Shown: one piece after another, positions 4,912 through 17,483 of the stretch | Position numbering within the stretch: the stretch's first letter is position 1 | How the letters are laid out: each line of letters starts with the position of its first letter | Source: Fidelibacterota bacterium | GTDB lineage: Bacteria > Fidelibacterota > UBA2242 > JAOZSR01 | Length of the DNA: 63,883 bases | Direction: 5' to 3' | Assembly: GCA_029939575.1 (NCBI GenBank) | Contig: JAOZSR010000008.1 | Coordinates: forward strand, 1 to 63,883 | Notes under the pieces: model-generated | Told to the model about the DNA's origin: nothing | Database searches by the model: none | Seen by the model: the letters and a program-made list of their open reading frames with translations, nothing else | Made by a program: the position numbers and the translations under genes

Positions 4912-5157
4912 ATGCAATTCTCTGATAGAATACTTTCGATTATTAAAGAAGATGTTGAAAAAGCCAATAATATTAGTTTAGATACCAATATCAGAAAGGA
5001 CCTTGAAATTGATTCCCTTGATTTTTTAATTGTTATAAATAGTATCGAAGATGAATTTTCAATTAATATTGATGAAAAAGATTTTAGTGAGATTGAAACA
5101 ATAGGTGAAATGATTTTGAAGTTGGAAGAGCAATTCCCAGATATTGGAAAAGATTGA
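4912..5157 (+). CDS. acyl carrier protein (first gene of lipid cluster)
   Basis: An 81-residue acyl carrier protein. The phosphopantetheine attachment site is Ser35 in DLEIDSLDFL, followed by the helix II/III pattern IEDEFSINIDE. It would hold the acyl chain as a thioester for the next enzyme. It is the first gene of a run of seven with overlaps or tiny gaps, and its stop lies 1 bp before the start of the alpha-oxoamine synthase at 5159. A dedicated ACP beside a serine-palmitoyltransferase-type enzyme is a known feature of several bacterial sphingolipid loci. The start ATG follows AAAGGTG at a suitable distance. Confidence 0.92.
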   Translation: MQFSDRILSIIKEDVEKANNISLDTNIRKDLEIDSLDFLIVINSIEDEFSINIDEKDFSEIETIGEMILKLEEQFPDIGKD

Positions 5158-5158
5158 T

Positions 5159-6343
5159 ATGAGTGAAAATTTTTATAAAAATTTATTCATCGATAAAAGT
5201 ATTGCTGACAAATTAAATTTTAATCCCTATTACCCTATTATTGAATCCGGTATTTCAAATCCGGTATTGATTAAAGGTGAAAACTTTATTGATCTGGCAT
5301 CTAATGATTACCTGGGGCTTACGAATAATGAAGATGTCAAAAATTGTATTATAAAAAGTTTGCGTAAATATGGCGCCTCAATGTGTGGGACACCAATTGC
5401 CACAGGCTATGTTGATATTTTTAAAAAAGCAGAGATGAAACTTTCGAATTTTCTGGGATTAGAGGATTCTATAATTTTTCCTTCCTGTTTTCAGGCTAAT
5501 GTCAGTCTCTTTCCCTCAATTATTAATTCAAAGGATTTAATTATTTTTGACCAATATGTTCACGCTTCAATGATCCAAAGTATCAGAACAACGGACTGTA
5601 AGATTAAGCCCTTTAAACATAACAATTTGGAGCATTTGGAAAATTTACTTAAAAGATCAACCGGATTTAGGGAAGTTTTTGTTGTAACTGAATCTGTTTT
5701 TTCTACTGAAGGCGTAATAGCACCTTTTAAGGAAATAGTAGATTTATGTAATAAATTTAATGCAATTCCGGTCATTGACGATTCACATGGAATTGGAGTA
5801 ATTGGAAGTACCGGCAAGGGAATTTTAGAGTTCTGCCAGATCAGTAATTATTCCGGAATATATACAGCTTCCTTAGGAAAAGGAATCGCTAATGCCGGTG
5901 GTATAATTAGTGGGAAAAATGCATTAATCGATTTTCTTCGTTATAGTTGCAGTGGATTGATTTATTCCACAGCCTTGCCTCCTTATATTTTTTCCGGTAT
6001 AATCAAAGTACTTGAAATTATTGAAAAAGATTATGACTCTCTTAGCAAAAAAATGTGGGCTAATAAAAATTTTATTGCTGAAAAATTAACAAAAAAGGGA
6101 TTCGGAATTTATGAGGGGAAAGCTCCAATTATAGCAATAATTGGAGGCAGTCTGGAAAATACAATCTGGTTGGCAAGGGAATTTTATTATAGACATATTC
6201 TTACAACTCCTTTTGTTCCTCCATCGGTTCCTCCTGAAAAAGGTATTGTACGTCTTATTGCCGGTTCCAATTTGTCCTCAGATTCTTTAGATAAAATCCA
6301 GTTAGCGATTTATGAAATTGGAAAACTTCTTTCATTAAAATAA
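5159..6343 (+). CDS. alpha-oxoamine synthase (serine palmitoyltransferase / KBL / BioF-like)
   Basis: A 394-residue PLP enzyme of the alpha-oxoamine synthase family, which condenses an amino acid with an acyl thioester and releases CO2. Landmarks: ASNDYLGL near residue 50, the cofactor-stacking His135 in QYVHASM, the PLP-contacting DDSHGIGVIG (His210), the Schiff-base Lys241 in SLGKGIANAGG and the YSTALPP segment after it. BioF, KBL and serine palmitoyltransferase share these motifs, so substrate is not fixed by them. The adjacent ACP, lipid kinase and SDR favour a sphingolipid-type long-chain base. I chose ATG 5159 (TGATATG junction) rather than TTG 5144, because it follows a GGAAAAG site and avoids overlap. 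Confidence 0.88.
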   Translation: MSENFYKNLFIDKSIADKLNFNPYYPIIESGISNPVLIKGENFIDLASNDYLGLTNNEDVKNCIIKSLRKYGASMCGTPIATGYVDIFKKAEMKLSNFLGLEDSIIFPSCFQANVSLFPSIINSKDLIIFDQYVHASMIQSIRTTDCKIKPFKHNNLEHLENLLKRSTGFREVFVVTESVFSTEGVIAPFKEIVDLCNKFNAIPVIDDSHGIGVIGSTGKGILEFCQISNYSGIYTASLGKGIANAGGIISGKNALIDFLRYSCSGLIYSTALPPYIFSGIIKVLEIIEKDYDSLSKKMWANKNFIAEKLTKKGFGIYEGKAPIIAIIGGSLENTIWLAREFYYRHILTTPFVPPSVPPEKGIVRLIAGSNLSSDSLDKIQLAIYEIGKLLSLK

Positions 6344-6350
6344 ACTCCGG

Positions 6351-7358
6351 ATGTCATTTATGCAAAAAAAATATTTTCTGATTATGAATCCAGGCTCACG
6401 TGGTGGAAAAAGTAAGAAACTTTTTAATACAATATTTAGATATTTAGAAAAACGAAATATTAAATACGACTTCCAAATTACTGAAAATTTGGAAAATGCC
6501 AAACAACTGTCATTAAAGGCAAATAAATCAGGATACCAAAATATTGTCGCTGTTGGAGGTGATGGTACTATCAACAATGTTATTAATGGTTTTTTTAATA
6601 AAGATGGCCACAGGATTTCCAATGCTAAAATGGGAGTAATTTATTCCGGAACCAGTCCGGATTTTTGTAAAAGTTATCATATTCCATACAAAAACATTGA
6701 GCAAATTATGGAAACTCTGATTGCCGGCATCACTACTACTATTCAAATTGGAAAAATTTCTTTATGTAAAACATATCAGCCAGATTATCATAACAAAGCA
6801 CTTAATGAATCTGTCCAAAATTCTGAATTAATAACCCGTTTTTTTGGATGTTGTGTGAATATTGGGCTAGGCCCAATGTTGGCCAGAAAATCAAATAGTG
6901 GAATCAGGAAAAAACTTGGCGATTTTGGAGGAACTTTTATCGCCCTTATCCAAACTTTATTGACTTATAAAGCATCAGATTTTCTGATTGAAACAGACGG
7001 GGTAAGGCAAGAAATAAAAAAAATGTTCAGCCTTTCTGTTGGGAAAACCCGCTATATTGCATCCGGAATTAAAGTAAAAAATGATTTAATTGAAGGTGAT
7101 AATAAATTTTACAATCTTATTGTACAAAAATTGGAACTGAAAGATGTAGCCCGATGTTTGCGAAATATTTATAGTGGAAATACTTTTAAAAATAGCAATA
7201 CAATGACCTTAGAATATTCCAAACAAATCAGTATTTATGGTAATAACCAATCACCGGAGGTGGAATTCGATGGTGATCCGCAGGGATATTTACCATGTCA
7301 GATTGAAATGGCCGGAAATAAACTTGAATTAATCACAGAAAGAAATCATGTTAACTGA
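6351..7358 (+). CDS. diacylglycerol kinase-fold lipid kinase
   Basis: A 335-residue protein of the diacylglycerol/sphingosine kinase (DAGK_cat, YegS/DgkB) fold. The N-terminus has the nucleotide motif MNPGSRGGK, followed near residue 65 by the catalytic GGDGTINNVINGF motif; a beta-sandwich C-terminal domain ends near LPCQIEMAGNKLELI. These enzymes phosphorylate lipid hydroxyls such as those of diacylglycerol, sphingoid bases or ceramide using ATP. In the Caulobacter sphingolipid locus a kinase of this fold phosphorylates ceramide, so a ceramide-like or long-chain-base substrate is a reasonable inference here. It starts 7 bp after the alpha-oxoamine synthase and overlaps the next gene by 11 bp. 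Confidence 0.85.
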   Translation: MSFMQKKYFLIMNPGSRGGKSKKLFNTIFRYLEKRNIKYDFQITENLENAKQLSLKANKSGYQNIVAVGGDGTINNVINGFFNKDGHRISNAKMGVIYSGTSPDFCKSYHIPYKNIEQIMETLIAGITTTIQIGKISLCKTYQPDYHNKALNESVQNSELITRFFGCCVNIGLGPMLARKSNSGIRKKLGDFGGTFIALIQTLLTYKASDFLIETDGVRQEIKKMFSLSVGKTRYIASGIKVKNDLIEGDNKFYNLIVQKLELKDVARCLRNIYSGNTFKNSNTMTLEYSKQISIYGNNQSPEVEFDGDPQGYLPCQIEMAGNKLELITERNHVN

Positions 7359-8367
7359 GAGAGATTATATTGAAATAATAAACAAGGTCATGAAGCAAAA
7401 TTGTAGCTGCACAGATCATGGTTTTGAAACTGATGCTACTCAAATTGAAATCTCAGACTCGAAATTATTGTTTTCTATGGATAATTATTCTGAAGAGGAT
7501 TTGTTAAGAGAAAATGATCCCTATTCTATGGGCTGGAATTTAGCAGCCGGAAGTATCAGCGATATTTATGCTGCCGGTGGTATTCCTAAATATTTTGGTC
7601 ATTCTATGAGTGTTTCGCAAACATGGGATGAAAAATATGTAGAGAAATTCACTCTTGGAATTGCAAATGTTCTGCAAAAAACAGATACAATATTTATGGG
7701 TGGTGACCTTAGCAAAGCAAAAAAATGGAAATATACTGCTTCTGTGATTGGAACGCTTGCTGGAAATCCATTAACCCGAAAAGGAGCAAAAGCTAAGGAT
7801 ATTATCTATATTACAGGAAAAATCGGCATCGGAAATTTGGAAGCAGCATTCACTCTTTTCTCTGATAAAAAAATCTCATCTGCTATTAGCAACAAAATTG
7901 AAACCAGATACAAACTCCATTCTGAAAAAGCAAAACTTGTTAGAAAATATGGAACAGCATGTATTGATACCAGTGATGGAACTTTTAATTCATTAAATAT
8001 TCTTTCGGAAATCAATTCTGTTGGATATGTAATCGATAATCTTCCCATTCATTCAAAGGGTATATTATTCGCAAAACTTGTATCTTTGCCAAAAGAGTTG
8101 CTTTTTTTAGGTGAATGTGGTGAATATGAATTGTTATTCACAATAGATCAAAATGATGAGGAATCATTTCTGAAAGAGGCAAAAGAACAGAGGTTGGTTT
8201 ATCATCGTCTGGGAAGAGTTGTAGCAAATAGAAATTTTAAAAAATTAATAACTAAACAAAATGCCGAATTAAATTTGTCGGAAATCCAATTCCGTGCCAG
8301 AGATTTTGAAAATGTAAAAGATTATTTAAAAGCGATCACTAATTCTATTTCAAAACAGAGGATGTAA
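7348..8367 (+). CDS. ThiL-like (AIR synthase-related fold) kinase in lipid cluster
   Basis: A 339-residue protein of the PurM/ThiL superfamily. ThiL-type landmarks are present: MGWNLAAGSISDIYAAGGIP (the IGWKAL..NLSDIAAMGA region), the GGDLSKA motif in place of GGDT, TASVIGTL, the RKGAKAKDIIYITG block and DTSDGTFNSLN in place of DISDGL. The N-terminal GDDAA metal motif of thiamine-monophosphate kinase is replaced by ETDATQ, and the usual D-x-x-VEGVHF reads DNYSEEDLL. True ThiL phosphorylates thiamine monophosphate. No thiamine gene is nearby, and the gene overlaps its neighbour by 11 bp, so a role in the lipid pathway is more likely than a role in thiamine synthesis. That is inference. Confidence 0.75.
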   Translation: MLTERDYIEIINKVMKQNCSCTDHGFETDATQIEISDSKLLFSMDNYSEEDLLRENDPYSMGWNLAAGSISDIYAAGGIPKYFGHSMSVSQTWDEKYVEKFTLGIANVLQKTDTIFMGGDLSKAKKWKYTASVIGTLAGNPLTRKGAKAKDIIYITGKIGIGNLEAAFTLFSDKKISSAISNKIETRYKLHSEKAKLVRKYGTACIDTSDGTFNSLNILSEINSVGYVIDNLPIHSKGILFAKLVSLPKELLFLGECGEYELLFTIDQNDEESFLKEAKEQRLVYHRLGRVVANRNFKKLITKQNAELNLSEIQFRARDFENVKDYLKAITNSISKQRM

Positions 8368-9642
8368 ATGAAAAAGCGAGTAGTAATTACAGGAATTGGC
8401 CCGGTTGTGTATCAGAGAACAGGAAAAAATGAATTTTGGCAATCGATTCTTGAGATGCGGATTTTCCCCCAAAAAATATCAACAATTTTCACCGATCATT
8501 ATAATTATAATTCAAAATATTATATACCTTTTCCCGAAGAAAAAATTGAAAATTATGATATTCCACGATTTTATGACAAAATTATGTCAGTGGAAGATAA
8601 AATCACAATAATCGGGGCGAAGTTAGCATTGCAGGATAGTGGCTTTGATATTCAAAAAACCGGCAGGAAATTTCAGATACCAACATTACAAAATACTGAT
8701 GTAATTCTTGGAACCGGGTTTAGCGGTCTGGAAAATTCATTCCGGTCATACGTCGCTCATTTATTCTCAGGGCAAAAAAATAATATCCCGCAAATAGAAC
8801 TTAACCGTTTTCACCGAATGATAATTCCTATGACAATGCCAAACTCTGTTGCCGCCTGGTTATCAATCCTTTTCAACTTCAAAGGAAGTTCATATACTAT
8901 AAATGCATCTTGTGCTTCAGGAACTTTTGCCATCGGAGAAGCATTTCGCCGAATAAAGGATGGATATTCTAAAATAGTTATTTCCGGAGGTGTGGAATGC
9001 CTGAAAGAAAAAAACGGATCTGTAATGCGAGGTTTTGATGTACTTGGGGCTTTGACAAAATCCGAAGATGGCTTGCCTATTCCTTTTTCAAAGGACCGCA
9101 GCGGTTTTCTTTTTTGTGAAGGTGGTGCCTGTATTCTCGTACTCGAGGAATTAGAACAGGCTTTGGGCAGAGGCGCTCAGATCTATGCTGAAATAATTGA
9201 TTTTAAATCTAATAGTGATGCTCATAATATTGTAAAAATTGATGAATCCGGAAAACAAATAACAAAACTATTAAGAGGGTTAGTTAAAAATCGACAGATT
9301 GACTATTTTAATTCCCACGGAACCGGCACTTTACTCAATGATCAGGTAGAAGCAAATTCAATTCTGGAAATATTTGGCGATAAAAATTCCCAGCCAAAAA
9401 TTAATTCTACAAAAGGACTTCTCGGGCATAGTATTGGAGCAAGTGGAGCCCTGGAAACTGCTGTAACCGCTCTTTCCATCAAGCATCAAAAAGTTCATGG
9501 AAACCAGACACCGAATCAAATTGAAAACCTGAATCTGATTTCAGAATCTACCGATTTAAATATTGAATATGCTATTTCCGGTTCCTATGGATTTGGAGGG
9601 CATAATGGAGGGCTTCTTTTAAAAAAATATGTCGAAAACTGA
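8368..9642 (+). CDS. beta-ketoacyl-ACP synthase (KAS I/II type)
   Basis: A 424-residue condensing enzyme of the FabB/FabF thiolase fold. It begins with the typical KKRVVITGIGPV strand and has a complete Cys-His-His set: Cys182 in INASCASGTFAIGEA, His317 in FNSHGTGTLLNDQVEA and His354 in KGLLGHSIGASGA, with the glycine-rich YGFGGHNGG near the end. It would extend an acyl-ACP by two carbons with decarboxylation of malonyl-ACP. It starts directly after the ThiL-like stop and overlaps the SDR gene by 14 bp. In this cluster it may build or extend the acyl chain on the local ACP. FabF-like housekeeping function is less likely given the absence of fabG/fabZ/fabI neighbours. Confidence 0.9.
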   Translation: MKKRVVITGIGPVVYQRTGKNEFWQSILEMRIFPQKISTIFTDHYNYNSKYYIPFPEEKIENYDIPRFYDKIMSVEDKITIIGAKLALQDSGFDIQKTGRKFQIPTLQNTDVILGTGFSGLENSFRSYVAHLFSGQKNNIPQIELNRFHRMIIPMTMPNSVAAWLSILFNFKGSSYTINASCASGTFAIGEAFRRIKDGYSKIVISGGVECLKEKNGSVMRGFDVLGALTKSEDGLPIPFSKDRSGFLFCEGGACILVLEELEQALGRGAQIYAEIIDFKSNSDAHNIVKIDESGKQITKLLRGLVKNRQIDYFNSHGTGTLLNDQVEANSILEIFGDKNSQPKINSTKGLLGHSIGASGALETAVTALSIKHQKVHGNQTPNQIENLNLISESTDLNIEYAISGSYGFGGHNGGLLLKKYVEN

Positions 9643-10690
9643 GAAAATAATAATTACCGGTGCAAATGGTTTTATTGGAAGTCATATTGTCAGAAAATTT
9701 TTAGATGAAAAATTGACAGTTGATTGTCTCGTCAGGAAAAGCAGTGATTTGTCAAACCTTTCCAATCTTAATATAAATCTAATATATGGAGATATCCGTA
9801 ATAAAAATGAGCTTGTCAAGGCATTTAGTGGAAAGGATTTGGTAATTCATACAGCAGCATTGGTCAGAGATTGGGGGGAATATAAAGATTTTTATGATAT
9901 TAATGTAACTGGTGTCTTGAATACTCTTATTGCGTGTTTGGAAGTTGGAATTAAAAATGTTATAATAACCGGTTCAAACTCGGTTTATGGGGAGGAAAAT
10001 TGTGAATTGACAAAAGACGAAACTTTCCCCTTTAACTCACATTATAAATATTTTCTGGACAAAATTTTTCCCTGTAAATTAAATTATTATCGGGATACTA
10101 AAGCCATTGGCACACAAAAATCAATCGAATTTGCAAAAAAACACAACCTGAATCTAACGATTCTGGAGCCGGTTTGGGTATTTGGAGAGAGAGAATTTAA
10201 CACTGGTTTTTTTGATTATTTAAAAACCGCAAAATCAGGAATTCCATTATTACCGGGATCAACAAAAAATCTTTTCCATGTTATATATGCTGGGGATTTG
10301 GCGAATTCTTTTTTTCTGGCCTGGAAAAAAAAGTTGACCGGAGTAAATCGTTTTATTATTGCTAATGACAAACCTGAATCAATGGAAAAAATTTATTCAT
10401 TATTTTGTAAATCGGCTAAAATCAAAAAACCTGCAAATTTATTAAAATGGATGATATATCCGGTCGGTTTTATTATGGAATTATTTTCGACCTTGTTCAG
10501 AACAAAAAATCCACCATTGTTAACTCGCGGCAGAATCAATATGTTTTATGATACAATAAAATTTTCTGCTAAAAAAGCCAGGCGAGAACTCGGCTTTTCC
10601 CAACAATATACTCTTGAACAATCTATTACCAAAACAGTACAATGGTATATAGATAATAATTTTTTTAACAATGTACATAAAGCAGGTTAA
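9629..10690 (+). CDS. NAD-dependent epimerase/dehydratase family SDR (3-beta-HSD/CerR-like)
   Basis: A 353-residue extended short-chain dehydrogenase. The Rossmann motif TGANGFIGSHIVRKFL is at the N-terminus, HTAALVRDWG marks the cofactor pocket, GSNSVYGE supplies the catalytic Ser region and YYRDTKAIGTQ carries the Tyr-x-x-x-Lys pair. The C-terminal half has a hydrophobic stretch (around 270-290), as in 3-beta-hydroxysteroid dehydrogenase-like members that act on membrane lipids. The Caulobacter ceramide reductase CerR belongs to the same broad family, so reduction of a 3-keto group on a sphingoid or ceramide intermediate fits the setting. It overlaps the ketoacyl synthase gene by 14 bp. Confidence 0.83.
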   Translation: MSKTEKIIITGANGFIGSHIVRKFLDEKLTVDCLVRKSSDLSNLSNLNINLIYGDIRNKNELVKAFSGKDLVIHTAALVRDWGEYKDFYDINVTGVLNTLIACLEVGIKNVIITGSNSVYGEENCELTKDETFPFNSHYKYFLDKIFPCKLNYYRDTKAIGTQKSIEFAKKHNLNLTILEPVWVFGEREFNTGFFDYLKTAKSGIPLLPGSTKNLFHVIYAGDLANSFFLAWKKKLTGVNRFIIANDKPESMEKIYSLFCKSAKIKKPANLLKWMIYPVGFIMELFSTLFRTKNPPLLTRGRINMFYDTIKFSAKKARRELGFSQQYTLEQSITKTVQWYIDNNFFNNVHKAG

Positions 10691-10694
10691 GAAG

Positions 10695-11990
10695 ATGCAA
10701 AAAATTAAAAATATAGTATCAATTAATAAGACCTGGTTTAATTTTCAATTAAAGACCGGAGTTTTTTTTCATTATTTTAAAGAGTTAATTCAAAAGAAAA
10801 TGTCAATTAAATCTTTCTTTTTTCTTATGAAACGTTTGAATTATTTTGTTTCCCAACTCCAGGAAAATAAATTTGTGAAGATTGGAAAAAATACTCGCTT
10901 AAATCTATATATTCCTGATTTTCCCACACCCTCCTTTTACACAGCATGTAATAAATTTAAAGAATTTGAACAAAAACTTCCCTGTACAACAGCGTTAATC
11001 TCTATTACTTCTGCCTGTAAATACAACTGCCAGCATTGTTATCAAAAATATGATATTGGAAAAGATGGAGATATTAATAAAACAATTGAGGTAGTTAAAA
11101 AACTCCAGGATATGGGAATTGCTTTTTTCAACATTGAAGGTGGTGAACCATTTTTAGTATTTGATAAATTGGAAAAAATCTGCACGGCAATAAATAATCG
11201 TTCTGAAATATGGATAAATTCTTCAGGTGATGGAATGAGTTCGGATAAACTCGCAGTATTGAAAAAATTAGGTGTAAAAGCAGTCATGTTTTCATTGCAC
11301 AGTTCCAATCCGGATGAATTGAATAAATTCATGGGTTCAGAATCAGCCTGGAAAAATTTGTCAAAGGGAATTGAATTATGTCACCAGGCTAATATTGTAG
11401 TAGCTTTTAATATTTGTCTTGGAAAAAAGGATTTTTATAATGGTGAATTTGAAAAAATAATGGAAACAGCTAAAGTATTTAAGGCAGCAATAATTCAATT
11501 AATAAATCCAAAACCAGCTGGTGGTTGGCTAAAAAGTGGTGCAGACATATTCTCCAAAGAAGATCTGGCACATGTCAAAACCTTAGTAAATAAATATAAC
11601 CACTCACCAAAATACAGGCAATATCCGGCTATCTCTGCCCAGATTAATGAAGAGGATAAAAATATGTTTGGCTGTACTGCCGGTGGAACCGATCGTTTTT
11701 ATATCAATGCCAAAGGCGATGTCCAGCCATGTGAATTTCTCAATATATCTTTTGGAAATATTAATGATGAGGATTTCTCAATAATTTATAAGAGAATGCG
11801 TAATATTTTTAAGAATCCCGGTGAAGATTGGTTATGTCAAAAATATTCAAAGGATATTTATCAAATTTATTTTGAAAATAATTTAAAAGCATTACCACTA
11901 AATAAAGAATTGTCAGAACAGATATATTTAAATTGGGATAGAGGAAATCCGACCGAGTTATATGACAAAATTGAAAATGAGTTGGCGTAA
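10695..11990 (+). CDS. radical SAM/SPASM domain protein
   Basis: A 431-residue radical SAM enzyme. The [4Fe-4S] motif CKYNCQHC (Cys108, Cys112, Cys115) lies after an N-terminal extension of about 100 residues, followed by NIEGGEPF and a TIM-barrel core. A SPASM-like C-terminal region has further cysteines in FGCTAGGTDRFYINAKGDVQPCEF and a late WLCQKY. Members modify peptides, proteins or small molecules; the substrate is unknown here. I chose ATG 10695 because AGG at 10684-10686 lies at Shine-Dalgarno distance; ATG 10671 in the same frame would overlap the SDR gene by 20 bp. Its position at the end of the lipid cluster suggests a radical modification of the lipid product, but this is a guess. 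Confidence 0.85.
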   Translation: MQKIKNIVSINKTWFNFQLKTGVFFHYFKELIQKKMSIKSFFFLMKRLNYFVSQLQENKFVKIGKNTRLNLYIPDFPTPSFYTACNKFKEFEQKLPCTTALISITSACKYNCQHCYQKYDIGKDGDINKTIEVVKKLQDMGIAFFNIEGGEPFLVFDKLEKICTAINNRSEIWINSSGDGMSSDKLAVLKKLGVKAVMFSLHSSNPDELNKFMGSESAWKNLSKGIELCHQANIVVAFNICLGKKDFYNGEFEKIMETAKVFKAAIIQLINPKPAGGWLKSGADIFSKEDLAHVKTLVNKYNHSPKYRQYPAISAQINEEDKNMFGCTAGGTDRFYINAKGDVQPCEFLNISFGNINDEDFSIIYKRMRNIFKNPGEDWLCQKYSKDIYQIYFENNLKALPLNKELSEQIYLNWDRGNPTELYDKIENELA

Positions 11991-12370: not shown

Positions 12371-13321
12371 ATGATTAAAGTTAAAAATTTAACAAAACAT
12401 TATGGAAACGTCAAAGCGGTCAACGGGATTAGTTTTGAGGTACAGGATGGAGAGATTTTAGGTTTTTTGGGGCCAAATGGAGCAGGTAAAACTACTACCT
12501 TGCGTATCTTGACATCCTATCTGGCGCCAACTGGTGGTAATATTTATGTTGATGACCTGAATGTAATTGATGATTCTGAAGAAATTCGGAAACTTATAGG
12601 CTATTTACCGGAACAAAATCCACTTTATGATGATATGCGGGTTTATGATTTTTTAGAATTTGTTGCCATGGCGCGAAGTATTGAAAAAAATATTTTTAAA
12701 ACCAGAATGAATGAGGTCATTAATCTATGTGGATTAAAAGGTGTTGTCCACAAATCAATTAATGAATTATCAAAAGGATACAGACAGAGGGTTGGGCTTG
12801 CACAGGCCATAATTCATGATCCAAAAATTCTGATTCTGGATGAACCGACTACAGGCTTGGATCCAAACCAAATTGTTGAGATCAGGGAATTGATAAAAGC
12901 ACTTGGAAAGAAAAAAACTGTTATTATTTCAAGTCACATTTTACAGGAAATACAGGCAACTGCTGACAGAATGATAATTATTAATAAAGGTGATATTGCT
13001 GCGAATGGTACAATCGGCGAACTAATGAGTGATTTCAAAGGTAAAACTCGCCTGACAATGGAAGTTAAAAATGCTACTGTTGAAGATATGAAAAAAATCA
13101 CTGATGAAATCAAATCCATTGAACTTAAAAATGTTGCAATAGAGAATGAATTACTTTGCAGTCATCTTGAATATTCCAATGAGATTGACCCCCGTGAAAA
13201 TATTTTTAAATATGCCGTAAAAAATAATTGGATCATTATGGAAATGAATCGCCACAAAACAAGTCTGGAAGATGTGTTTAGAAATCTGACAATTGAAGAA
13301 GGAGGTTCAAATGAAAAATAA
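12371..13321 (+). CDS. ABC transporter ATP-binding protein (GldA-like)
   Basis: A 316-residue ABC ATPase. Walker A is GPNGAGKTT (about residues 35-43), the signature is LSKGYRQRVGLAQA, Walker B is ILILDEPTTGLDP, and the H-loop is ISSHIL. A C-terminal extension of about 90 residues follows, ending TSLEDVFRNLT, as in the ABC-2 exporter ATPases. Together with the next three genes it matches the GldA/GldF/GldG arrangement of FCB bacteria: an ATPase, an ABC-2 permease and a large extracytoplasmic protein. The substrate of these transporters is not known. Its stop overlaps the start of the permease, showing translational coupling. Confidence 0.9.
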   Translation: MIKVKNLTKHYGNVKAVNGISFEVQDGEILGFLGPNGAGKTTTLRILTSYLAPTGGNIYVDDLNVIDDSEEIRKLIGYLPEQNPLYDDMRVYDFLEFVAMARSIEKNIFKTRMNEVINLCGLKGVVHKSINELSKGYRQRVGLAQAIIHDPKILILDEPTTGLDPNQIVEIRELIKALGKKKTVIISSHILQEIQATADRMIIINKGDIAANGTIGELMSDFKGKTRLTMEVKNATVEDMKKITDEIKSIELKNVAIENELLCSHLEYSNEIDPRENIFKYAVKNNWIIMEMNRHKTSLEDVFRNLTIEEGGSNEK

Positions 13322-14027
13322 TATTCTAATGATATATAAAAAAGAAATGTCTGCATTTTTTAATGGTCCGGTAGCCTATATTACATTAGTTGTATTCCTG
13401 TCAATTGGGGGTTGGTTGTTCACCAGTACTTTTTTTCTGCGCCAACAATCTGACTTGCGGCAACTATTTGATTTAATTCCATTGCTTTTTATCTTTTTTA
13501 TTCCGGCTATTAGTATGAGCCTGGTAGCCAAGGAAAAACAAACAGGCACTATGGAATTTTTGGTAACTCTGCCAGTATCGGACACAGAAATTGTTTTGGG
13601 GAAATTTTTTTCAGCCCTGGCTTTGATAGGTGTTTTTCTGCTTTTTACATTAGTCCATTTTTTTACTTTATTGATTGTTGGAAATAATATTGACATTGGT
13701 GCCTTATTATCCGGATATATGGGATTGTTTCTGGTTGGAGCAGTTTATGCGTCGATTGGCACATTTGGCAGTGCTTCAACAAATAATCAAATCGTTGCTT
13801 TTATAGTCAGCCTATTAATTATTTTTATCTTTTTTATAATGGGCAAAGTACTAATGTTGATTCCACCGGGATTAGGCGCAATAGTACAATATTTAAGTAT
13901 TGATTATCATCTCAATAATATTTCACGTGGTGTAATTGACACACGAAATCTGATATATTTCGGATCGGTGATTGTATTTTTCCTCACATTGAGTGTCAGG
14001 TTTTTAGAAATGAGAAAATGGAGGTAA
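13311..14027 (+). CDS. ABC-2 type permease (GldF-like)
   Basis: A 238-residue membrane protein with about six hydrophobic segments: one near the N-terminus after MSAFFNGPVAYI, then around 50-75, 100-130, 135-160, 165-185 and at the C-terminus. The N-terminal KKEMSAFFNGPVAY and the loop AKEKQTGTMEFLVTLPVSD are typical of GldF/ABC-2 permeases, the latter corresponding to the coupling helix that meets the ATPase. The ATG at 13311 is chosen because AAGGAGG lies 5-11 bases upstream; the upstream in-frame TTG at 13293 would place that site inside the gene. The frame overlaps the ATPase stop by 11 bp. Confidence 0.88.
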   Translation: MKNNILMIYKKEMSAFFNGPVAYITLVVFLSIGGWLFTSTFFLRQQSDLRQLFDLIPLLFIFFIPAISMSLVAKEKQTGTMEFLVTLPVSDTEIVLGKFFSALALIGVFLLFTLVHFFTLLIVGNNIDIGALLSGYMGLFLVGAVYASIGTFGSASTNNQIVAFIVSLLIIFIFFIMGKVLMLIPPGLGAIVQYLSIDYHLNNISRGVIDTRNLIYFGSVIVFFLTLSVRFLEMRKWR

Positions 14028-14029
14028 AA

Positions 14030-15649
14030 ATGGCAAATATTAACAATAAAAAACAATTAACTACTTTTATAATTTTATTCGCAGTAATTATCATCATCCT
14101 GAATATTGTTTCAAGAAAAATGTTTTTCCGGATCGATGTAACAGATAATAATATTTATTCTTTATCCAATTCCAGTAAATCAGTTATCAAAAAATTAGAT
14201 GACAGAATTGTCGCTAAAGTATTTTTCTCGGAAAATATTCCAGGTCAATTAGCTAATTCGCGACGCTATTTACAGGATCTTCTTGAAGAATACCAGGCCT
14301 ATTCAAACGGTAATTTTCATTTTGAATTAATTTCACCTGATGATAATGAAGATGCACAGAAAGAAGCACAGAGTTATCGTATTCCACCTGTACAAATGCA
14401 AGTTGTGGAAAATGATAAAATTGAAATTAAAAATGCATATATGGGTTTGGTTTTGCTATATAATGATAAACAGGAGGCTATTCCGGTTATCCAAACCAGT
14501 GATGGTCTGGAATACACTTTAACAGCTGCTATTAAAAAAATATCTGCTACTGACCTGGCTCAAATTGGAGTTGTTTCTGATTCAAAAACAGAAAACCCAA
14601 CAACAAAACTTGAACAGGAATTAAATAAAATCTATTCAGTCAGACAAACTTCATTAGATAGCAAAATTCCCCAGGAAATCAATACTATTTTAATGAATGG
14701 AGTAACAGATTCTTTAAGCCTGGATCAATTATACAATCTTGATCAGTTTATTCTTCGCGGTGGAAGACTATTTATTGGACAATCCCGTTCTATTGCTCAT
14801 CTTCAAAAAGGGATAGCTGACGAAATCAAATCAAATATTTTTCCATTTCTCGAACATTATGGGATTAAAATTGGTCGGGATATGCTAACAGATAAAAAAT
14901 GTGGTCAGGTTCAGGTTCAACGACAAATGGGAATATTTAATATTCCGGTTCCGATAAATTATCAACCATTCCTTACTTTAAATAATTTTAATACGGAAAA
15001 TCTGATCGTGAAAAATCTTGAGGAAGTAAGGATTTTCTTTGCTCATGAAGTTTTCCCTGCAAATGATAGTGTGAATTTCACATCTTTGATAAAAACATCA
15101 AATCAAACAGGTTCAATATCCCCTGGTATGATCCCACAACAAAGTCCCTATGGTGGTGGTTATTCCATGGCTCAGGGATACAATATCAGACCACATAACA
15201 ATAAAATAAACAGCAGTAATCCAGCTTTAACATCTTTTCCTTTAAAAAATAAAAATGTTGTCGGATTGGTTGATGGATTTATGACAAGTTTTTTCAAAGA
15301 TAGTAGTGCATACAACTCCAGGGAATTATTTTTAAGTCAAACTGACAAGGGGCAAATTTTACTAGTTGGTGATAATCAATTTTTTAATGACCAAAGAGCC
15401 GGAGGAATACCGGAAAATCTGAGTTTTATTATGAACAGTATAGATTTTCTTGCTGGTGATCAGGAGTTGTTAGAGATCAGATCACGTGGAATTACCGCCA
15501 GACCATTGGATGAATTACCGGATTCATCGCGTCGTTTCTGGAAATGGCTGAATGTAATATTACCATCGTTTTTAGTAATTTTATTAGGTCTTTATCGAAT
15601 GAAGAGAAATAAAGATAAAAGAAACATGTTGGAGGAGATTTATGGCTAA
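14030..15649 (+). CDS. GldG-like extracytoplasmic ABC transporter component
   Basis: A 539-residue protein with an N-terminal transmembrane helix (about residues 8-30), a large GldG/ABC-type uncharacterised transport domain (from RIDVTDNNIYSLSNSSKSVIKKL onwards) and a C-terminal transmembrane helix (about 510-530) with a short cytoplasmic tail rich in Arg/Lys. The opening motif (D-x-T-x-x-x-x-Y-S-L-S) is the hallmark of this family. ATG 14030 follows GGAGG at 14020-14024 and lies 2 bp beyond the permease stop; ATG 14018 would put the ribosome-binding site in the coding region. A repetitive Gly/Pro/Tyr-rich stretch near residue 370 is probably a flexible loop. It is the third member of the GldA/F/G-like set. 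Confidence 0.85.
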   Translation: MANINNKKQLTTFIILFAVIIIILNIVSRKMFFRIDVTDNNIYSLSNSSKSVIKKLDDRIVAKVFFSENIPGQLANSRRYLQDLLEEYQAYSNGNFHFELISPDDNEDAQKEAQSYRIPPVQMQVVENDKIEIKNAYMGLVLLYNDKQEAIPVIQTSDGLEYTLTAAIKKISATDLAQIGVVSDSKTENPTTKLEQELNKIYSVRQTSLDSKIPQEINTILMNGVTDSLSLDQLYNLDQFILRGGRLFIGQSRSIAHLQKGIADEIKSNIFPFLEHYGIKIGRDMLTDKKCGQVQVQRQMGIFNIPVPINYQPFLTLNNFNTENLIVKNLEEVRIFFAHEVFPANDSVNFTSLIKTSNQTGSISPGMIPQQSPYGGGYSMAQGYNIRPHNNKINSSNPALTSFPLKNKNVVGLVDGFMTSFFKDSSAYNSRELFLSQTDKGQILLVGDNQFFNDQRAGGIPENLSFIMNSIDFLAGDQELLEIRSRGITARPLDELPDSSRRFWKWLNVILPSFLVILLGLYRMKRNKDKRNMLEEIYG

Positions 15650-16160
15650 AAGAAAAAACAACTGGAAAAAATATATCATTGCACTGGTCGTAGTTTTATT
15701 CTTATTACTAATATCAAACCTTCGGGATAAAAAATATGAACCTAAGCAAAAAGATCTATTTAAAATTGACGCCAACGAGATAAACGCATTTACAATTAGC
15801 AAAGATACTTTATCTGTAACAGTTATCAAATTTGATACAACCTGGATTTTTGAAGCGCCTGATACGGGATCAATAAAAATGCAAAGAGTGAATGACTTTT
15901 TTGCTAATGTGGTTAACGGGAAAAGTACCGGTTATGCAACAGACAAACCAGAGAAATACCCTCAATATAACATTACTGAACAATTGGGAACAAAAATTGA
16001 ATTAAAAAATGGGGAAACTGTTTTGGCAACTGTTATTGCCGGCAGATCAAAATCTAACTGGAATACCAGCTATGTTAAGTTTCCAGATGATCCAAAGGTT
16101 TATAGAACACAAAATAATATCCTGTTTTCTTGTAGTGAACGTGCAAGTTTTTGGCGTTAA
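15642..16160 (+). CDS. DUF4340 domain protein, short form
   Basis: A 172-residue protein with a short basic N-terminus, one transmembrane helix (about residues 10-26) and an extracytoplasmic DUF4340-like domain (FTISKDTLSVTVIKFDTTWIFEAP, then RVNDFFANVVNGK, the usual W.l..P and helix pattern). DUF4340 proteins commonly sit directly behind GldG-like genes and many have about 300-450 residues with two repeats; this one has a single repeat. It overlaps the GldG-like gene by 8 bp and is followed by a clear terminator, so it closes the operon. Whether it is a natural short form or has lost its C-terminus cannot be told from one sequence. Confidence 0.75.
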   Translation: MAKRKNNWKKYIIALVVVLFLLLISNLRDKKYEPKQKDLFKIDANEINAFTISKDTLSVTVIKFDTTWIFEAPDTGSIKMQRVNDFFANVVNGKSTGYATDKPEKYPQYNITEQLGTKIELKNGETVLATVIAGRSKSNWNTSYVKFPDDPKVYRTQNNILFSCSERASFWR

Positions 16161-16292: not shown

Positions 16293-16327
16293 TATATTGC
16301 AATACAGACTTGAAAGAAGGTTCAAAT

Positions 16328-16753
16328 TTGATAAAATTAAAACAAATATCGAGACACATAATTATTTATTTCCTTCTGTTTACATCTATTCTCGCAAGTT
16401 CACCACTTTTTACAATTATCCAGGAAGAGTGTAAGTCTTACAAATTACCAATAACTTTTAATATGATGAATTTAGTGGAAAGGCCTGATGGAAGTACAGA
16501 ATTAAACCTGAATATTATAAGCGAAAGAAATAAATTTGACACCAATATGCTTGTAGGATTTTATGCCTCAGGTAAAGGTATTTTAGAAACCGATCTAAAT
16601 ATTAAAAAAGTTAATATTTACATTAAAGTGAAATATAAAAATGTTCGCCAAATTATTGTCTCTGCCCAAAAAAAAGATATCCTGAAATATGTAAATAATG
16701 AGATTTCTTACAGTGATTTTATCAATAAAATTAATTATAAATATACAAAATAA
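16328..16753 (+). CDS. small secreted protein, paralogue A
   Basis: A 141-residue protein of no family I recognise. A hydrophobic signal segment (IIIYFLLFTSILASS) precedes a mature part of about 110 residues with alternating beta-like strands and the landmarks FNMMNLVERPDG, LVGFYASGKGIL and YSDFINKI. The protein at 17064-17483 has the same length and the same landmarks (SMMSLLELPNG, LVGYYAAGKAIQ, YSDFMKKV), so the two are tandem paralogues. TTG at 16328 is chosen because AAGAAGG lies 7 bases upstream; TTG at 16310 would hold that site inside the gene. It has its own promoter at 16264-16292 and probably acts in the periplasm or outside. Confidence 0.75.
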   Translation: MIKLKQISRHIIIYFLLFTSILASSPLFTIIQEECKSYKLPITFNMMNLVERPDGSTELNLNIISERNKFDTNMLVGFYASGKGILETDLNIKKVNIYIKVKYKNVRQIIVSAQKKDILKYVNNEISYSDFINKINYKYTK

Positions 16754-17028: not shown

Positions 17029-17063
17029 TAACAAAGAAATTGAGTATAGCAGGAGGTATTATA

Positions 17064-17483
17064 GTGAAAAAAAGTAAAAAATCTATTTTTCTTTTAATTA
17101 TTATCTTATTATCAATTTCATCTTTAACCTTTGGTAATTCCCAATTTTTATCAATTGTACAGAGAGTGTGTGCATCATATCAGCTTAAAATGGAATATAG
17201 CATGATGAGTCTACTTGAGTTGCCAAATGGAAATCAGGAATTAACAATTACAATGAATAGTACCAGAAATAATTTTGACAAGAGTTTATTAGTTGGATAT
17301 TATGCAGCTGGTAAAGCAATACAAAAAACAAATTTTAATATTGAAAGTGTCATAATTATTGTGAATATTGAATATAAATCTGTAATGCAAATTATATCTT
17401 CTGTTAAAAAAGAAGATGTCTTGGATTATTCGTCTAATAAAATAGATTATAGTGATTTTATGAAGAAAGTAACTTATCTTTGA
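17064..17483 (+). CDS. small secreted protein, paralogue B
   Basis: A 139-residue protein starting at GTG 17064, which follows AGGAGG (17051-17056) at 7 bases; the in-frame TTG at 17040 would contain that site. A basic N-terminus and a hydrophobic signal (FLLIIILLSISSLTFG) precede a mature domain that aligns along its length with the product of 16328-16753, including MM..L, LVGYYAAGK and YSDF. No function is known. The small membrane protein at 17511 follows after 27 bp and then a terminator, so these two may share a transcript. Confidence 0.75.
   Translation: MKKSKKSIFLLIIILLSISSLTFGNSQFLSIVQRVCASYQLKMEYSMMSLLELPNGNQELTITMNSTRNNFDKSLLVGYYAAGKAIQKTNFNIESVIIIVNIEYKSVMQIISSVKKEDVLDYSSNKIDYSDFMKKVTYL

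Follow-up and report, generated by a model that had tools for sequence, protein, structure and literature searches.

We report a conserved unit of nine genes, seven of which occupy positions 4912-11990 of contig JAOZSR010000008.1 in a Candidatus Neomarinimicrobiota genome (G000; assembly GCA_029939575.1). We consider it possible, though short of probable, that this unit encodes a pathway to a phosphorylated sphingoid-type lipid in which a UbiA-family prenyltransferase stands in the place of ceramide synthase. The window, meaning the whole stretch of DNA analyzed, comprises 63,883 nucleotides of this contig. An initial annotation of the window had described a packed cluster of seven lipid-related genes and had suggested that they produce a sphingoid-like aminolipid; this remains the best reading of the locus, as a prediction drawn from sequence.

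All seven open reading frames (ORFs) are present and intact on the plus strand and almost touch one another. Pfam and NCBIfam profile searches of the window proteins assign them to the families originally named:

4912-5157, plus strand: dedicated acyl carrier protein (ACP); PF00550, 1.1e-10; conserved DSLD phosphopantetheine site at residues 34-37
5159-6343, plus strand: pyridoxal phosphate-dependent alpha-oxoamine synthase (AOS); Aminotran_1_2, 2e-42; TASLGK with the catalytic Lys, stacking His, DDSHG, Arg365
6351-7358, plus strand: DAGK/YegS-fold lipid kinase; PF00781 (DAGK_cat), 1.1e-24, plus YegS_C; GGDGT
7348-8367, plus strand: ThiL-like kinase of the AIRS superfamily, a cluster-specific subfamily; AIRS; TIGR01379, 3e-41, 141 bits (cutoff 184)
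8368-9642, plus strand: FabF-like ketoacyl synthase (KAS); both KAS domains, Cys-His-His triad intact
9629-10690, plus strand: extended short-chain dehydrogenase/reductase (SDR) of the 3-beta-HSD/HpnA/OleD type; Epimerase/3Beta_HSD; TGxxGFIGSH and YRDTK in most copies
10671-11990, plus strand: radical SAM/SPASM enzyme (rSAM); Radical_SAM plus SPASM; CxxxCxxC plus three further invariant Cys

None of the seven proteins passes a curated NCBIfam cutoff; all are therefore divergent representatives of their superfamilies. With the starts listed, the intergenic distances are 1, 7, -11, 0, -14, and -20 bases. Alignments with relatives suggest that the DAGK-fold kinase probably starts at ATG 6360 and the rSAM enzyme at ATG 10695, so that some of the overlaps depend on the start chosen. 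For the AOS, ATG 5159 is preferable to TTG 5144.

A Nine-Gene Unit Conserved across Phyla

The genes first recognized are indeed conserved together, but the set of seven is incomplete. Two additional members, a UbiA-family prenyltransferase and an Oxidored_FMN flavoenzyme (Old Yellow Enzyme, OYE), lie 5′ of the ACP gene in a second Neomarinimicrobiota genome (G001) and in all complete Bacillota loci. The resulting order, UbiA, OYE, ACP, AOS, DAGK, ThiL-like, KAS, SDR, and rSAM, is found in 16 single-contig loci (L051, L052, L054, and L124-L136) from two phyla, Neomarinimicrobiota and Bacillota. In the window genome, the UbiA and OYE genes are neighbors on a separate contig (C121, 84796-86979), apart from the seven, and their products share 60% and 54% identity with their counterparts in G001. 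G001 belongs to the same taxonomic order as the window genome but to another family; all seven window genes recur there in unchanged order, at about 41-62% identity, with rSAM the best conserved (62%). Close relatives are rare in the phylum, having been found in only three (KAS) and two (rSAM) of 245 genomes.

An rSAM alignment was scanned against 85,000 species genomes, revealing cluster carriers well outside the FCB group. These include, besides Candidatus Neomarinimicrobiota, HGW-Firmicutes-12, a Clostridia metagenome-assembled genome (MAG), Desulfosporosinus sp. HMP52, and a Bacteroidota MAG; two Omnitrophota carry an rSAM homologue at 35-37% identity. Within the family of strain HMP52, 16 of 46 genomes encode a close rSAM (a 17th match is weak, at 26%), and the loci retrieved contain the nine genes complete in 13 further genomes, plus two contig-edge remnants. 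The Clostridia genome (G248) has its nine genes divided between two contig ends (L106 and L053). The Bacteroidota genome (G247) likewise yields two pieces, one a 4-kb contig with a partial UbiA gene followed by OYE, ACP, AOS, and DAGK (L102) and the other with the ThiL-like, SDR, and rSAM genes (L055); its KAS gene was not located.

Recurrence of the set at roughly 40-60% protein identity in several phyla, in one order in the 16 single-contig loci, indicates that the block has been inherited or transferred as a functional unit and excludes a chance arrangement. We are nearly certain that the nine-gene unit is real. The GC content of the seven-gene cluster (0.326, against 0.325 for the window) shows no sign of recent transfer.

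A reduced version occurs in the Omnitrophota genome G249, where an ACP-AOS fusion (a single 485-aa ORF) and the DAGK, SDR, and UbiA genes are adjacent. Because these are kept together, we regard them as the core. KAS is absent from this reduced cluster, and a full-length rSAM homologue (35%) is encoded elsewhere in the genome. OYE has no match in either Omnitrophota genome, and searches of these with TIGR01379 recovered canonical ThiL along with weaker AIRS relatives, none of which we judged to be ThiL-like in the sense of the cluster protein.

Several additional features of these loci were observed. In a third Neomarinimicrobiota genome (G004), contig C47 (L040:711-2398) carries an intact cluster KAS gene, a ThiL-like gene of which just the 3′ end is left, and an adjacent phosphofructokinase-type gene, and contig C267 (L105:334-583) carries OYE fragments with stops; the cluster of this genome looks as if it is decaying or has been rearranged. 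Three Bacillota loci have, immediately before UbiA, a gene for a small helix-turn-helix (HTH) protein of about 150 aa (L052:1302-1757, L054:1371-1841, and L106:5970-6413), which is a candidate regulator; an HTH family match was obtained for the L052 and L054 proteins. The two Omnitrophota rSAM homologues (L056:9962-11278 and L057:9968-11281) apparently share one conserved neighborhood, with pdxA and ksgA upstream in L056, at a distance from the reduced cluster.

A Separate Clade of Alpha-Oxoamine Synthases

In a maximum-likelihood tree, 20 cluster synthases form one clade with support of 100/100. KBL (98/92) and the Bacteroidota SPT group (96/95) both lie outside it, and BioF is placed apart, although the deep placement among these groups is weak. 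The catalytic Lys, stacking His, Asp, and carboxylate-binding Arg are invariant in 14 cluster copies aligned to 3a2b, and among proteins in the PDB, KBL and SPT are equally near.

Another explanation for such a gene would be housekeeping biotin or threonine metabolism with accidental neighbors, and KBL and BioF models do give the top NCBIfam scores for the AOS. However, these scores (280 of 460 and 275 of 426, respectively) are far under the cutoffs, and the conserved gene set includes no bio or tdh genes. Furthermore, the window genome possesses two genuine KBL genes on contig C132, both over the KBL cutoff and flanking a 589-aa ORF (G000:C132:26084-30594, L104). The two outcomes that the initial annotation had named as contrary to its reading, a grouping within BioF or KBL and a lack of joint conservation, were not observed, and the separate clade together with the conserved gene order refutes the housekeeping assignment, whose probability we consider practically nil.

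Proteobacterial SPT that depends on AcpR has been demonstrated to use an acyl-ACP donor (PMC9386255). By analogy, the adjacency of the ACP gene and the ACP-AOS fusion of Omnitrophota point to acyl-ACP as the probable donor for the cluster AOS as well.

We also considered whether the genes serve a standard sphingolipid pathway, with ceramide synthase encoded elsewhere in the genome. ACP, an SPT-like synthase, an SDR, and a lipid kinase are indeed classical parts of such pathways. However, the AOS lies outside the SPT clade and reaches only 249.8 bits against the SPT model NF047600 (cutoff 640). In agreement with the initial annotation, no homologue of bacterial ceramide synthase (bCerS) was found in the window or in the cluster loci by a search whose positive control was recovered at 54% identity, the rest of the genomes not having been searched. 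In addition, the unit constantly includes UbiA, OYE, the ThiL-like kinase, and rSAM, which would have no role in a standard pathway. Thus, we regard this explanation as quite improbable.

A DGGGP Synthase Relative with an Altered Metal Motif

The solved protein nearest to the cluster UbiA (PRENYLTRANSFERASE) is archaeal digeranylgeranylglyceryl phosphate (DGGGP) synthase (phmmer 5e-16; profile 7e-16, positions 3-281). DGGGP synthase is also the first of 13 good matches to the predicted fold (2.6e-9; model pLDDT 86). In the reaction of this enzyme, a phosphorylated backbone that already carries one chain receives a second, prenyl chain (PMC9385802).

The first Asp motif of UbiA enzymes is altered in the cluster proteins, all 19 readable copies having NDxxGxxED in place of NDxxDxxxD. 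DYxGD, the second motif, is retained, as is the Y/K motif, and in the UbiA paralogues of G000 and G001 NDxxDxxxD is unchanged.

The acceptor of the reaction is suggested by the distribution of PcrB/GGGPS, for which we searched 16 genomes. Clear matches are present only in G000 and G001, and PcrB/GGGPS is absent or below threshold in carriers from Bacillota, Bacteroidota, and Omnitrophota, with the exception of two partial, borderline matches of 24 bits. Since most carriers lack PcrB, we judged it unlikely that the cluster UbiA acts on the PcrB product, prenylglyceryl phosphate, in these organisms; the acceptor could instead be the product of the cluster itself.

Proposed Pathway and Its Chief Alternatives

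From these features we infer a product, substrates, and an order of steps as follows. The dedicated ACP would receive its chain from KAS and fatty acid synthase enzymes. The AOS would then join the acyl-ACP to an amino acid, most likely serine, with loss of CO2 to yield a 2-amino-3-ketone. The SDR may reduce the ketone, and the DAGK-fold kinase may phosphorylate the resulting hydroxyl. UbiA, as a relative of DGGGP synthase, would attach a second hydrophobic group to the phosphorylated base and thereby replace ceramide synthase, whereas the ThiL-like kinase, OYE, and rSAM could tailor the head or the chain. Precedents exist for some of these steps: a report on Pseudomonas describes a polyketide synthase (PKS) and an AOS that make sphinganines, showing that local chain building coupled to an AOS does occur (PMC12134224), and a lipid kinase is known to act on ceramide (PMC11324152).

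A more specific version of this proposal, which we consider unlikely, is a hybrid lipid consisting of an amino acid-derived sphingoid phosphate to which UbiA, through its rewired metal motif, adds an isoprenoid or other transferred group as the second chain.

The catalytic residues of the remaining enzymes are intact. GGDGT is present in all copies of the DAGK-fold kinase, Cys-His-His in all copies of KAS (which misses its equivalog cutoff, 260 of 494), and CxxxCxxC and the SPASM cysteines in rSAM. Almost every copy of OYE has a cluster of cysteines at its C terminus. The nearest relatives of rSAM, albeit remote, are the peptide-maturing SkfB and MoaA.

Three observations weigh against the proposed pathway. 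First, because the AOS lies outside the SPT clade, serine as its substrate is a guess, even if it is the most likely amino acid. Second, the altered Asp motif of UbiA means that an ordinary prenyl diphosphate donor is not assured. Third, the SDR shows only weak similarity (22-28% identity) to the CerR-type SDRs of real Bacteroidota SPT-bCerS-CerR operons, so the likeness to sphingolipid loci is looser than first suggested. A seemingly closer SDR homologue in true SPT operons (36-39% identity over short ends) was dropped once full loci gave these values.

The chief rival explanation concerns the two kinases. ThiL enzymes convert a phosphate monoester into a diphosphate (thiamine monophosphate to thiamine diphosphate), and in plants, phytol kinase and phytyl-phosphate kinase act in succession to feed prenyltransferases. 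By the same logic, the DAGK-fold kinase could produce a lipid monophosphate, the ThiL-like kinase could convert it to a lipid diphosphate, and UbiA could use this non-isoprenoid diphosphate as its donor. The two kinase genes are neighbors in all complete loci, and a change in the metal/diphosphate motif that is specific to the cluster UbiA would fit an unusual donor.

The ThiL-like protein itself is also compatible with such a role. It has the ThiL fold (model pLDDT 87, with ThiL proteins as the best fold matches) and invariant D29, D45, S71-D72, GGD, and IDTSDG, and it differs in the region that aligns with the GVHF motif in ThiL. Cluster copies score 123-141 bits against TIGR01379 (cutoff 184), and none passes. 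This distinct subfamily coexists with two true ThiL proteins in the Bacteroidota carrier, which makes it unlikely that the cluster protein is the housekeeping ThiL; the case is weaker for the window genome and Desulfosporosinus, in which no ThiL over the cutoff was found. However, Omnitrophota has the DAGK-fold kinase and a UbiA with the same altered motif, yet it has canonical ThiL and no match that we called ThiL-like. Moreover, UbiA donors are allylic, and there is no obvious allylic alcohol for the kinases to act upon. We therefore hold the diphosphate-donor scheme to be unlikely, even as the leading competitor.

Another possibility is that the unit makes a prenylated small molecule. The condensation products of PigH-like synthases cyclize to pyrrole-type rings, and a beta-ketoacyl-ACP joined to an amino acid by the cluster AOS could similarly form a pyrrole- or pyrrolinone-type ring. 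UbiA would prenylate this ring, and OYE and rSAM would tune it to yield a redox or signaling compound. This is consistent with the discrete KAS, its triad intact, next to ACP and AOS, with the rings that are the usual substrates of UbiA relatives, and with the frequent occurrence of OYE and rSAM enzymes in redox cofactor pathways. However, the Omnitrophota cluster is without KAS and its genome without an OYE match, and nevertheless the DAGK-fold kinase, SDR, and UbiA are kept. The presence of a dedicated DAGK/YegS kinase argues for a lipid, and the cluster UbiA is nearest to DGGGP synthase rather than to aromatic prenyltransferases. A ring-forming pathway thus also appears doubtful, and we continue to favor the phosphorylated sphingoid-type lipid.

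Comparison with Known Lipid Systems

The sphingolipid locus of Caulobacter and Rhodobacteria (spt, acpR, aasR, bcerS, cerR, and the ceramide kinase gene CC_1160) resembles the unit in having a dedicated ACP, a PLP-dependent synthase, an SDR, and a lipid kinase. In contrast, the conserved set described here has no visible bCerS or acyl-ACP synthetase, its AOS is outside the SPT clade, and UbiA, OYE, KAS, the ThiL-like kinase, and rSAM are additions. To our knowledge, the sulfonolipid pathway does not have UbiA, OYE, ThiL-like, or rSAM partners. It does begin, as we propose here, with an AOS (cysteate fatty acyltransferase; PMC9304779) acting on a fatty acyl thioester, although the cluster AOS is no closer to this enzyme than to KBL or SPT.

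The SgaAB system of Pseudomonas fluorescens also has a local condensing enzyme that feeds an AOS, with an SDR nearby, but it uses a single iterative type I PKS where the present unit has a discrete KAS plus ACP; the accessible part of that report mentions neither a prenyltransferase nor paired kinases (PMC12134224). Archaeal-type ether lipid genes of FCB bacteria (GGGPS and DGGGPS; PMC7852524) resemble the unit in including a DGGGPS-like UbiA, which would give a phosphorylated backbone its second chain. The unit differs in that this backbone would be derived from an amino acid, GGGPS was not found in most carriers, and the UbiA motif is altered. Ladderane clusters have only the KAS and radical SAM themes in common with the unit (PMC2649909).

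Genes Flanking the Cluster in the Window

NFACT and LEA_2 genes in the opposite orientation are located 5′ of the cluster, and an ABC transporter operon is located 3′. An operon of this kind borders the cluster in both Neomarinimicrobiota genomes; it follows the cluster in the window (12371-16160) and precedes it in the other genome (L039:16123-19910). We take it to be of the Gld type, presumably comprising an ATPase, a permease, and GldG-like and DUF4340-like proteins. Beyond it are two similar 147-aa ORFs (window 16310-16753 and 17040-17483), an apparent tandem duplication of an exported protein.

Implications

Every protein family in the unit is already known. The open-access literature, a scope that leaves out most subscription journals, yielded no description of the nine-gene combination, the separate AOS clade, or the UbiA signature, and it contained nothing relevant on sphingolipids in Desulfosporosinus or on other work with Desulfosporosinus lipids. 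There is a modest chance that the product represents a new lipid class. Because the pathway is common to uncultured Neomarinimicrobiota and culturable Desulfosporosinus-type bacteria, lipidomics offers a direct way to look for this product.

For two much-studied enzyme superfamilies, the altered motif of UbiA and the ThiL-like kinase specific to the cluster also open a way to probe for new substrates. If the proposed UbiA step is correct, then bacteria would be able to complete a two-chain sphingoid lipid without ceramide synthase, and the genes of the unit would serve as markers for an overlooked lipid class in environmental genomes. If the product is indeed the hybrid lipid, then a bacterium would combine sphingolipid-type and archaeal-type chain chemistry in a single molecule.

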